A stretch of 64,000 nucleotides of DNA, from assembly GCF_000715015.1 (NCBI RefSeq), contig NZ_JMIW01000002.1, forward strand, positions 62,001 to 126,000. Reading direction: 5' to 3'. This stretch comes from Erythrobacter longus. GTDB taxonomy: Bacteria; Pseudomonadota; Alphaproteobacteria; Sphingomonadales; Sphingomonadaceae. Positions 27,636 to 34,902 of this stretch are shown here, in pieces; within the stretch, counting starts at the first letter, position 1, and each line of letters starts with the position of its first letter. The notes under the pieces were generated by a model. That model was not told the DNA's origin and made no database searches. It saw only the letters and a program-made list of their open reading frames with translations. Made by a program: the position numbers and the translations under genes.

Positions 27636-27764
27636 AACAGGTCAATTACACCTCAGTTTCACCCCCAACCGATGAATTCTGTTCACGGTGTGTTGGCCAG
27701 CACATCGATTGTTCCAAGAACTGTTCAGACGCTCTCTCAGTCATATCAATGAATGGGGGAAACC

Positions 27765-29069
27765 ATGTCAAACCACAGAATCAAACTCATCCGCCAGGCG
27801 GACGCACATATTGATGTCGGCAATCCAGTTGCCGTCGTAGAAGAGGCAATCTGTACCTGCCGCGAAATGTGCGTCAGCGCGAGCAAGGAAATCAGCGATA
27901 TCCGCCTTGCAGGCGGGGCAGTCGGCGAAGGAATGGATAAGGTCAAGGAAGCCTATTTCAACAGCGAAGGGCGCAGCTTTCCAATCTGGTTCGGCTGGTA
28001 TGAAAAAGACCCGGACCGCGCGCTGCGACGCATCGAATTGCGTTTCAACGAGATCATTCAACGCATCGACAAAGGGCTTAATGTGCGTTGCCGCCCGGCC
28101 ACAGGACGGCGGGCGCGGCGGTGCGACGAGGGTATCACCGCCTTTCAAAGTGGAGGTATCTCAAGACCGCGCAAATTTCACCTGTGTCCCGAATGGTTCA
28201 ATAAGAAATATCAGGACGATGCTCATCGGCTGAAGCTGGACAAGAAATATTACCAGGCATCGGTCATCGCGCACGAATTGTGCCATGCAATCGGTGCGTT
28301 TGGTGCTCCCGACTTCAAAGATGCTTCTGGCAACAAAGTTTACGGCGAGGTTCGTTCGCTTGCATTTGCGGCGGCCGATCCATTGAACGCGGTACGAAGC
28401 CCGGAGAATGTGGAGAATTTCCTGACTTATCGCGAGCGCATCAGACAAAAACCCACAGATTTCATCCGTATGCCCAAGGCAGGCACAACGCCTGCGCTTC
28501 AATGGACGGGCGTACCCGCCAATGTCGATGCGGCGATTAATCATCCCAATGGCAAGGACTACTTTTTCAAAGGAGACCGGTATTGGCGCTATGATCATTC
28601 AATCCACCAGGTCGACAAGGCAAATGCCAAGATCGGACAGGACGGTTGGGCAGGAGTTCCAAGCAATCTGGACGCAGCCATCCTCCACCCCAAGAACGGG
28701 AAAGCCTATTTCTTCAAGGGCAATCAATATTGGCGCTACAAATTCGGCGAAGGCGTCGATATCGACCGGCCCCGCACAATCGGCAAGGACGGCTGGGCCG
28801 GAATGGACGGCAATATAGACGCTGCGATCGTCTCCAAAGACAAAAGCCATGCGCTCTTCTTCTATGGCCCATACTACCGGGTGTTCAATTTTCAGACCGA
28901 CACGGCAGGTGCGCTGATGAACCTTCGCACTACGACGCGCTGGGGGCAGTTTGACTACCTTTATGGTAACTTCAATGCTGCGCTTATGAATGAGCACACC
29001 GGACACGAGACATTTTTCACCAGCGACTTTTACCAAATGGATGATATGGCTGGATATAGTATCGCGTGA
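27765..29069 (+). CDS. Aspzincin-like metallopeptidase fused to hemopexin repeats
   Basis: The 434-residue protein has two parts. Residues about 20-228 hold an M35 (aspzincin)-like zinc site: HELCH at 170-174, then GAPDFKDASGN with candidate third-ligand Asp, VYGEVRSLA and PENVENFLTY, which match the layout of lysine-specific metallo-endopeptidases. Residues about 250-430 are four hemopexin repeats, with DAAINHP..KDYFFKGDRYWRY, DAAILHP..KAYFFKGNQYWRY, DAAIVSKDK..ALFFYGPYYRV and NAALMNEHT..ETFFTSDFYQ. No signal peptide is visible. ATG 27765 follows GGGGGA. Two ABM genes follow. Confidence 0.72.
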   Translation: MSNHRIKLIRQADAHIDVGNPVAVVEEAICTCREMCVSASKEISDIRLAGGAVGEGMDKVKEAYFNSEGRSFPIWFGWYEKDPDRALRRIELRFNEIIQRIDKGLNVRCRPATGRRARRCDEGITAFQSGGISRPRKFHLCPEWFNKKYQDDAHRLKLDKKYYQASVIAHELCHAIGAFGAPDFKDASGNKVYGEVRSLAFAAADPLNAVRSPENVENFLTYRERIRQKPTDFIRMPKAGTTPALQWTGVPANVDAAINHPNGKDYFFKGDRYWRYDHSIHQVDKANAKIGQDGWAGVPSNLDAAILHPKNGKAYFFKGNQYWRYKFGEGVDIDRPRTIGKDGWAGMDGNIDAAIVSKDKSHALFFYGPYYRVFNFQTDTAGALMNLRTTTRWGQFDYLYGNFNAALMNEHTGHETFFTSDFYQMDDMAGYSIA

Positions 29070-29118
29070 GGCAACGCATAAGCAGTTTGGCCTCAGCACT
29101 TCGAGGGGGGACAATTTC

Positions 29119-29421
29119 ATGCTAATCGTGTTGGCACAGGCCACATTGGGTGATGGCGCGCTCGACAAAGGGCGCGCCGCATTCACCGCCATGATCGAGG
29201 CGTCGCGCAAGGAAGAGGGCTGTATCGCCTATTCCTATGGCGTCGATGTGCTTGACGCAGCCAAGCTTGTCATCGTTGAAAAGTGGGTCGATGATGCCGC
29301 CCTCGCCTATCATTTTGGCACGCCGCATATGGCTGCGTTTCAAAACGCTCTTGCCGGGCTCGATATAACCATAACCGAGCTCAAGAAATTTCAAGCCGAT
29401 GGCGGCTCTCCCCTTTCGTAA
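29119..29421 (+). CDS. ABM-domain protein 1 (antibiotic biosynthesis monooxygenase-like)
   Basis: The 100-residue protein is a single dimeric ferredoxin-like ABM domain: MLIVLAQATLG, AFTAMIEASRKEEGCIAYSYGVD, KLVIVEKWVDDAAL and HFGTPHMAAFQNAL. This fold covers monooxygenases, heme-degrading enzymes and many unknowns. ATG 29119 follows GAGGGGGG. It lies 49 bases after the metallopeptidase-hemopexin gene, so co-transcription is likely. The reaction is unknown. Confidence 0.75.
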   Translation: MLIVLAQATLGDGALDKGRAAFTAMIEASRKEEGCIAYSYGVDVLDAAKLVIVEKWVDDAALAYHFGTPHMAAFQNALAGLDITITELKKFQADGGSPLS

Positions 29422-33705: not shown

Positions 33706-34902
33706 TCACTTCCCTTCCATCGCCCCCCAGTAGAGCGCGCGGTATGCCTGGGTCATGGTTTGCGCGTCGAAATGGGTGCGCGCCTTGTCCCGGTTTTGTT
33801 TACCCAGCTCACGGCGCAGGCCATCGTCACTGGCAAAATCGGACAATATCTGCCCCAAGGGTTCAGCCCCGCCAGCGGGCACAATGAACGGGCGGTTTGC
33901 GTCTGACACCATTGCCTTCACATCGCCCACATCAGGCGCAGCGACCGGCAGGCCTGCCGCCATGGCTTCGACAACGCTAAGCGGGAATTGTTCGCTCTTC
34001 GAAGAAAGGGCGAAGACATCGAACAGGCCGATGACCTGCGCAGGGTTCGGGTGTGCGCCGGGTAAATGCACGCGGGTGCTGATCGAAAACCGCTGTGCCG
34101 CCGCCTCAATGGCACCCCGCTCCGGCCCTTCGCCAAGGATCACAAGGTGCCAGTTTTCGGGAAGGCCCGCAAAAGCCTCCACCAACATCGGCAACCCCTT
34201 GACCGCGCGAAGGCCCGCAAGCGTGCCGACCCAGCGCTCCCCTTCCCGCTTTTGCAAGGGCAAGGACGAGGGCAAGGACGAGGGCAAGGACGAGGGCAAG
34301 GACGAGGGCAAGGACGAGGGCAAGGACGAGGGATCGGGCGCATTGGCAAAGGCTTGGGTGTCGATCCCATTGGCAATGCGGTGCACTTTGGCTGCGGGCT
34401 GTTTCCACACGCGAAGGGCAATCTGTTCCAGAACGCTGCTGGGCACGACAAGGCTGCGCGCAGTTCGCAGCGCAATCCGGCGCATCCAATTGCGGCTGGA
34501 TTTAAGACCATGCGCCTCGTCTTCGTTAAAGCCATCCTCATGATGGATAAGCGGGGGCAGCCCCATGGCTTTGGCAAATATCCGGTGCGCCAGAACGCCG
34601 TCCATTGCGCCCCAATTGTAGGTGAGCACGAGATCAAACGGCTTCATCGCTTTAGCCAGAGCGGCGAGCCTTCCCGGAGCCAGCCGCCCGGTAAGCGATG
34701 GAAAATCAACGGGAAAATCCACTTTGAGCGATGGATCAATCGCCCCGCGCGCCGCCATCTGCTGGGGCATCCCAGATACAACAGTATGATGGAGCGCATC
34801 GCCAAACGCGTTCATCAAGCTTACCGCGCGTAGCTCCTTTCCACCGGCGGCAAAGGTCGAATGCAGGTGCAGGACTTTGGGCGGGCGGGTCGATTGCGTC
34901 AT
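33706..34902 (-). CDS. Glycosyltransferase (GT4 type) with minisatellite loop
   Basis: A family 4-type (GT-B fold) glycosyltransferase of 398 residues. The N-terminal part has FAAGGKELRAVSLMNAF and the C-terminal half has HRIANGID, LVILGEGPERGAIEAAAQRF, VHLPGAHPNPAQVIGLFDVFALSSKSEQFPLSVVEAMAAGLPVAAPDVGD (split), including the EQFPLSVVEAMA donor-sugar motif. In the middle (about residues 192-215) there are six copies of the tetrapeptide Leu-Pro-Ser-Ser coded by a 12-bp repeat at 34261-34332. Acceptor unknown. It follows the hydrolase gene by 13 bases. Confidence 0.82.
   Translation of the reverse strand: MTQSTRPPKVLHLHSTFAAGGKELRAVSLMNAFGDALHHTVVSGMPQQMAARGAIDPSLKVDFPVDFPSLTGRLAPGRLAALAKAMKPFDLVLTYNWGAMDGVLAHRIFAKAMGLPPLIHHEDGFNEDEAHGLKSSRNWMRRIALRTARSLVVPSSVLEQIALRVWKQPAAKVHRIANGIDTQAFANAPDPSSLPSSLPSSLPSSLPSSLPSSLPLQKREGERWVGTLAGLRAVKGLPMLVEAFAGLPENWHLVILGEGPERGAIEAAAQRFSISTRVHLPGAHPNPAQVIGLFDVFALSSKSEQFPLSVVEAMAAGLPVAAPDVGDVKAMVSDANRPFIVPAGGAEPLGQILSDFASDDGLRRELGKQNRDKARTHFDAQTMTQAYRALYWGAMEGK
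34261..34332. repeat. 12-bp minisatellite in a glycosyltransferase
   Basis: Six perfect copies of CAAGGACGAGGG, plus half a copy upstream at 34255-34260. Being 12 bp it keeps the frame, adding four residues per unit on the minus strand. It lies in the loop between the two Rossmann domains. A related 12-bp unit is seen in moaE at 48361-48408. Confidence 0.95.

Follow-up and report, generated by a model that had tools for sequence, protein, structure and literature searches.

In animal matrix metalloproteinases, an HExxH zinc peptidase is followed by a hemopexin propeller, and the catalytic part is a metzincin, with the motif HExxHxxGxxH. The fungalysin-type enzymes of Cryptococcus, which belong to peptidase family M36, are likewise described as combining a microbial zinc peptidase with hemopexin, and differ from the protein described here in being fungal, in having a large pro-domain and in belonging to another peptidase family. 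Their C-terminal hemopexin domain is given in the excerpted text of a review (PMC8533249), and bacterial hemopexin modules in that of a paper on the Photorhabdus photopexins (PMC2422844). The partner of hemopexin in the photopexins is a PA-IIL lectin-type domain rather than a peptidase. For the M35 peptidases (aspzincins), the excerpted text of PMC7215534 gives the motifs HEXXH plus GTXDXXYG, with the Asp as third zinc ligand, and that of PMC11985622 places the proton-donor Tyr three residues past this Asp. In the excerpts of open-licence literature on hemopexin with M35, deuterolysin or Streptomyces, no M35-hemopexin fusion was found.

The window, a stretch of 64,000 nucleotides from an Erythrobacter longus contig, contained a gene combining an M35-like catalytic half with a hemopexin half. 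Its product is probably (at about 0.72) a zinc endopeptidase of divergent aspzincin (M35) fold with the hemopexin propeller as substrate exosite. The features of the locus were as follows:

27765..29069, + strand: M35-like / hemopexin coding sequence, 434 aa plus stop; open frame with a start common to three orthologues.
27963..28427, + strand: aspzincin-like catalytic core, residues 67-221 (PF14521, hhalign, fold match).
28272..28286, + strand: HELCH, residues 170-174, with putative zinc ligands H170 and H174 and putative general base E171; in 4/4 orthologues.
28311..28313, + strand: D183, putative third zinc ligand (within GAPD here, the other orthologues having GTRD or GTKD); in 4/4 orthologues.
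28341..28343, + strand: Y193, putative counterpart of the M35 proton-donor Tyr; in 4/4 orthologues, in the M35 Tyr column.
28404..28415, + strand: E214-N-V-E217, where M35 peptidases have the NAD(N/S)..E motif; E214 and E217 in 4/4 orthologues.
28509..29054, + strand: hemopexin-type propeller of four units, the last one degenerate, residues 249-430 (PF00045, vitronectin match, Foldseek).

With the M35 peptidases (Grifola frondosa Lys-N, deuterolysin, AsaP1), the protein shared the predicted fold, the HExxH, an Asp at H+9, a downstream Tyr, a WFG and cysteine columns 120 and 141. It differed from them by a sub-cut-off Pfam score, a 7-residue insertion in GTxDxxYG, S(P/A)E in place of NAD, the hemopexin tail, the absence of a hydrophobic leader and the lack of room for a pro-domain. 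The order of HExxH zinc peptidase and propeller is that of the animal matrix metalloproteinases, but the catalytic part is aspzincin-like and not metzincin; HELCHAIGAFG carries no third His at the metzincin place.

The frame 27765-29069 (+) translated without internal stop across 434 residues, and no reverse-strand frame spanned it, the longest overlapping one having 203 codons. The ATG at 27765 was preferred over that at 27753 because two of the three other orthologues had a stop four codons 5' of the same MSNHR start; the orthologues began with either MSNHR or MSDHN. The gene is beyond chance, since full-length orthologues were found at 71%, 71% and 60% identity to the window protein and dN/dS was 0.12 over the full length of the L017/L018 pair, the one pair far from synonymous saturation (catalytic half 0.14, propeller 0.09). 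Between the window and L016, dN/dS was 0.14 with synonymous change near saturation, and four of the six full-length pairs were discarded as saturated at synonymous sites. The gene is real, conserved and uncommon, and is kept by selection in a few species.

Orthologues were present in 4/114 genomes of the genus, a fifth, weak match (G132, E 0.009, three stops) having been dropped because it lay opposite a long unrelated frame. Among 385 sampled genomes of the class, the sole match besides the window's own was to the hemopexin part, and the contig scan of genomes returned four loci, two of them full-length relatives and two matching over the hemopexin part. Phage records gave no match at E 1e-5, and viral contigs contained no relative of the whole protein; they yielded M35-like loci only (L081, L082 and L084, the other locus of the L084 search being on the contig of L081), a second pattern yielding none. 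Hemopexin matches within the genus extended to 5/114 genomes, G130 being the one besides the four carriers. The G130 locus (L046, - strand, 1041 aa read) combined a glycine-rich first part with a hemopexin stretch, and G130 also had a VipB match.

In the window, the gene was flanked by a GCS2-type glutamate-cysteine ligase gene upstream and by two ABM monooxygenase-like genes downstream. All four orthologues lay between GCS2 and a methyltransferase-like gene (labelled by eye), together with two ABM genes; in G021 the two ABM genes enclosed the gene, and in the other three carriers it was placed between GCS2 and the first of them. Among 30 GCS2 loci read, from 61 genomes searched, the gene was present in three (window, G021 and G135) and absent from 27, some of them with a single ABM gene at this place or none. 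In other genomes of the genus, the same interval next to GCS2 carried a CHAT-domain gene (L064:2899-4206, +) or a MauG-type peroxidase gene (L018:11879-13138, +), and so looks like a minor insertion spot for single genes. In its longest frame (28990-29421), the first ABM gene overlapped the 3' end of the peptidase gene; translation may really start from the ATG at 29119, since the ABM domain does not begin until residue 44 of this frame. Elsewhere in the window, a perfect 12-base tandem array of 6.3 copies (34257-34332) was found in a glycosyltransferase gene (33706-34902, -), where it encodes a Ser-Ser-Leu-Pro repeat between the two Pfam domains of the gene.

The hemopexin assignment is secure. 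PF00045 matched the window protein in three stretches (E 1.1e-19; 70.6 bits against a cut-off of 21.3), in agreement with the hemopexin half of the first-pass annotation, and phmmer against the PDB matched this half to vitronectin (E 2.2e-28) and gelatinase A (E 3.1e-18). The annotation had counted four repeats; four units were indeed seen by eye, starting near residues 255, 303, 352 and 404, but Pfam marked three stretches, and the fourth unit, seen by eye only, was degenerate and mostly modelled at pLDDT <50. The full-length AlphaFold model (three alignment rows) had a pLDDT of 44.6 overall and block means of 70-86 over residues 251-380, and was unusable for the catalytic domain and usable for the propeller alone. 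Foldseek on the propeller taken from it returned the hemopexin domains of MMP-14 (top match) and vitronectin. Other bacterial hemopexin fusions were seen, namely with a type I phosphodiesterase domain on a Pseudoalteromonas piscicida plasmid (L088:2894-4636, +; record with two annotated features) and with DUF4114 in a Nostoc protein, which suggests that hemopexin may be a portable tail in bacteria.

For the catalytic half, the single-sequence evidence for M35 was thin, and the strong evidence came from profile comparison and the predicted fold. Searched against Pfam with a limit of E 1, the whole window protein matched hemopexin alone and not M35. The PF14521 (Aspzincin_M35) profile, run against the N-terminal 245 residues, matched residues 67-219 (E 0.009, 16.9 bits), and scored 21.9, 22.9-23.0 and 24.6 bits in three orthologues (E 2.6e-4, 1.2e-4 and 3.8e-5). 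The matches in the four orthologues each covered most of the profile, and none reached the cut-off of 30 bits. In the genome that the window comes from, PF14521 matched nothing at E up to 10. When the catalytic halves of the four orthologues were combined into a profile and run against the PDB, no M35 chain came back, the best match being unrelated (E 0.23).

M35 domains were then sampled from 398 Pseudomonadota genomes, of which 21 gave 23 matches with E at most 0.001. A motif search gave frames for 18 of these 23 loci and none for L033, L034, L037, L038 and L041; after removal of L039, which belonged to a 1760-codon frame, and of L040, whose frame was that of L026, 16 domains remained. Compared with these by hhalign, the four orthologues matched over residues 66-221 with a probability of 97.4 and an E of 1.1e-11. 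The match to M35 that had been expected over residues 100-228 was thus below the cut-off by Pfam, in the window protein as in its orthologues, but significant by profile-profile comparison. A further M35 protein (L030:382-1932, +; G224) also contained an eCIS core domain (PF13699) and a peptidoglycan-binding domain, suggesting that its M35 part may serve as the payload of a contractile injection system.

The four orthologues, two Streptomyces proteins and 11 of the 16 M35 domains were then aligned together in 17 rows. H170, E171, H174, D183 and Y193 were present in all 17 rows, an invariance that is partly by construction, because 11 rows had been picked by an HE..H...D..Y search for the same residues. 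The four orthologues and the two Streptomyces rows had not been so picked, and the alignment of the orthologues to these columns is what carries weight. C120 and C141 fell in cysteine columns common to 8 of the 13 other M35 rows.

Concerning location, the absence of a signal peptide noted in the first-pass annotation was borne out by hydropathy, a crude measure for a leader: no 12-residue stretch of the first 60 residues exceeded 1.37, whereas four M35 frames taken for comparison reached 1.9-2.9 within their first 70, and none of the four orthologues had a hydrophobic leader. This would suit a cytoplasmic protease or regulator that is not exported and whose propeller binds an internal partner, as would the distribution of contractile machinery, with the T6SS protein VipB found at E 1e-5 in 8/114 genomes of the genus and the phage-type PF04984 sheath at the same threshold in 16/114, each in 0/4 carriers. 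Such a protein would differ from the preferred zinc endopeptidase in location only, so that the odds of the two overlap, and we consider it possible at somewhat less than even odds. The conservation of C120 and C141 weakly favours an oxidising place; among the M35 rows sharing these columns are L022, L025 and L027, which have hydrophobic leaders, and also L007 and L008, without strong leader. As the two cysteines are kept, a place outside the cytoplasm is more likely than one inside, although location forms no part of the preferred reading. Export and the targeting of matrix, which had also been proposed, are speculation.

At the active site, HE(L/I)CH was conserved in 4/4 orthologues and aligned with the HExxH of the 13 other M35 rows, and D183, nine residues past H174, fell in the M35 Asp column, where metal binding is predicted. 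The HELCH and the downstream Asp-containing segment of the first-pass annotation were therefore confirmed, the Asp being D183 in 4/4 orthologues. The strict GTXDXXYG motif was absent: the Asp kept its place after HExxH, a 7-residue insertion parted D183 from Y193, and the orthologues read G(A/T)xDx9Y(G/N), with GAPD-x9-YG in the window, GTRD-x9-YN in two orthologues and GTKD-x9-YG in one. Where M35 has NAD, the four orthologues read S(P/A)E; column 214 was Glu in these and Asp in the other 13 rows, and column 217 was Glu in the orthologues.

These changes (the insertion between D183 and Y193, the T of GTxD replaced by A in the window copy, the loss of NAD in 4/4 orthologues and YN for YG in two) could also mark a degenerate or pseudo-peptidase, in which the M35 fold is kept, the zinc site is altered and the protein binds through its propeller. 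Such a protein is quite unlikely, given that HExxH, Asp and Tyr are kept in 4/4 orthologues and that the dN/dS of the catalytic half is low in the L017/L018 pair, though above that of the propeller. The product is better described as a predicted peptidase of aspzincin fold that should work like M35, called divergent because the motif is altered and both the strict motif and the Pfam cut-off are missed. In the preferred zinc endopeptidase, zinc would be held by H170, H174 and D183, E171 would activate water with the assistance of Y193, and the C-terminal propeller would act as an exosite keeping the substrate, a protein or glycoprotein, near the active site. The gene is carried singly in its conserved chromosomal neighbourhood. 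In the Grifola enzyme, an acidic pair among the specificity residues favours Lys. A basic (Lys-like) P1' preference is accordingly conceivable for the acidic pair E214/E217 at the M35 NAD..E place. Glu157 of the Grifola enzyme was named in no paper found in the excerpted open-licence literature, nor in the excerpted text of PMC11985622.

The fold of the catalytic half was predicted for residues 1-240 (AlphaFold, six alignment rows; pLDDT 75.2, pTM 0.80). Half of these rows were themselves distant M35 sequences, taken from viral contigs, so the fold confirms M35 and does not independently prove it. The sole PDB match of this model below 0.001 in Foldseek was the Grifola zinc peptidase 1g12 (E 4.4e-4). 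With VIA-align, the model matched AsaP1 (Z 17.7; 2.4 A over 163 residues), deuterolysin (Z 16.2; 2.6 A over 164 residues), the Grifola enzyme (Z 15.9; 2.7 A over 162 residues) and Candida Pra1 (Z 13.6; 3.4 A over 190 residues); these four accounted for the best seven matches (Z 13.6-17.7), the eighth having Z 5.3. The fold match started at residue 3-12, which therefore leaves no room for a pro-domain.

That the protein is another HExxH zincin fused to hemopexin is very improbable, as profile and fold comparison single out M35 while neprilysin and MMP catalytic domains gave Z 3.7-4.3, despite the sub-cut-off Pfam scores and weak matches to the Astacin profile in two orthologues (E 0.22-0.23). 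The M35-like catalytic half proposed in the first-pass annotation is upheld by the profile-profile E of 1.1e-11 and the predicted fold, and the M35-type reading is right in fold and not in strict membership. The parallel it drew with matrix metalloproteinases also fits, the MMP catalytic domains, karilysin included, scoring Z 3.7-4.0 against 15.9-17.7 for AsaP1, deuterolysin and the Grifola enzyme (with the model built, as noted, in part from M35 sequences), but the convergence itself is what we infer.

The combination of M35 and hemopexin is not unique, since two Streptomyces plasmid proteins, among four plasmid relatives scanned and five found, carried both domains, in the same order: WP_329583243.1 (M35 E 2.2e-37; hemopexin 1.2e-25) and WP_327740436.1 (M35 E 8.8e-31; hemopexin 6e-84). 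One is recorded as 'M35 family metallo-endopeptidase' and the other as 'hemopexin repeat-containing protein'. Like the window protein, they lacked a strong hydrophobic leader, as judged from their annotated starts (hydropathy 1.47 and 0.5); they differed from it in being canonical M35, with about 200 extra N-terminal residues and four and eight hemopexin stretches, and were 26% identical to it. A local hemopexin profile, which detected three hemopexin proteins not used in building it, found hemopexin at none of the 23 sampled Pseudomonadota M35 loci (~1.5 kb each side) and none of the three viral ones.

In both catalytic-domain trees, the rows from Erythrobacter grouped with the two from Streptomyces (supports 99/99 and 100/99). 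Long-branch attraction is likely here, as the internal branches measured 5.6-6.4 changes per column and the tips had zero length, and the Streptomyces pair formed one group in 6% of bootstrap trees (tree with 100/99). By hhalign, the E of the orthologues was 1.9e-8 against Streptomyces, 1.5e-7 against Alphaproteobacterial and 4.1e-6 against canonical M35, values that lie close together. Erythrobacter and Streptomyces may share one fusion or represent two, trees and hhalign favouring neither firmly. A broader and rather unlikely proposal is that the leaderless aspzincin-hemopexin proteins of both genera form an undescribed group of MMP-like enzymes with an unknown exit route, whose propeller would seize glycoproteins of animals, algae or rival microbes, the architecture having been reached more than once from different zinc proteases.

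This branch of the aspzincin fold was scored below the cut-off by the current Pfam model in 4/4 orthologues, and NCBIfam offered no family for the window protein; annotations of such genes will therefore probably mention only the hemopexin repeats. If the preferred reading is true, bacteria, starting from another protease family, would also have arrived at the plan of animal matrix metalloproteinases, a zinc endopeptidase plus a hemopexin exosite, and there would be a second natural system in which to ask what the hemopexin exosite contributes.
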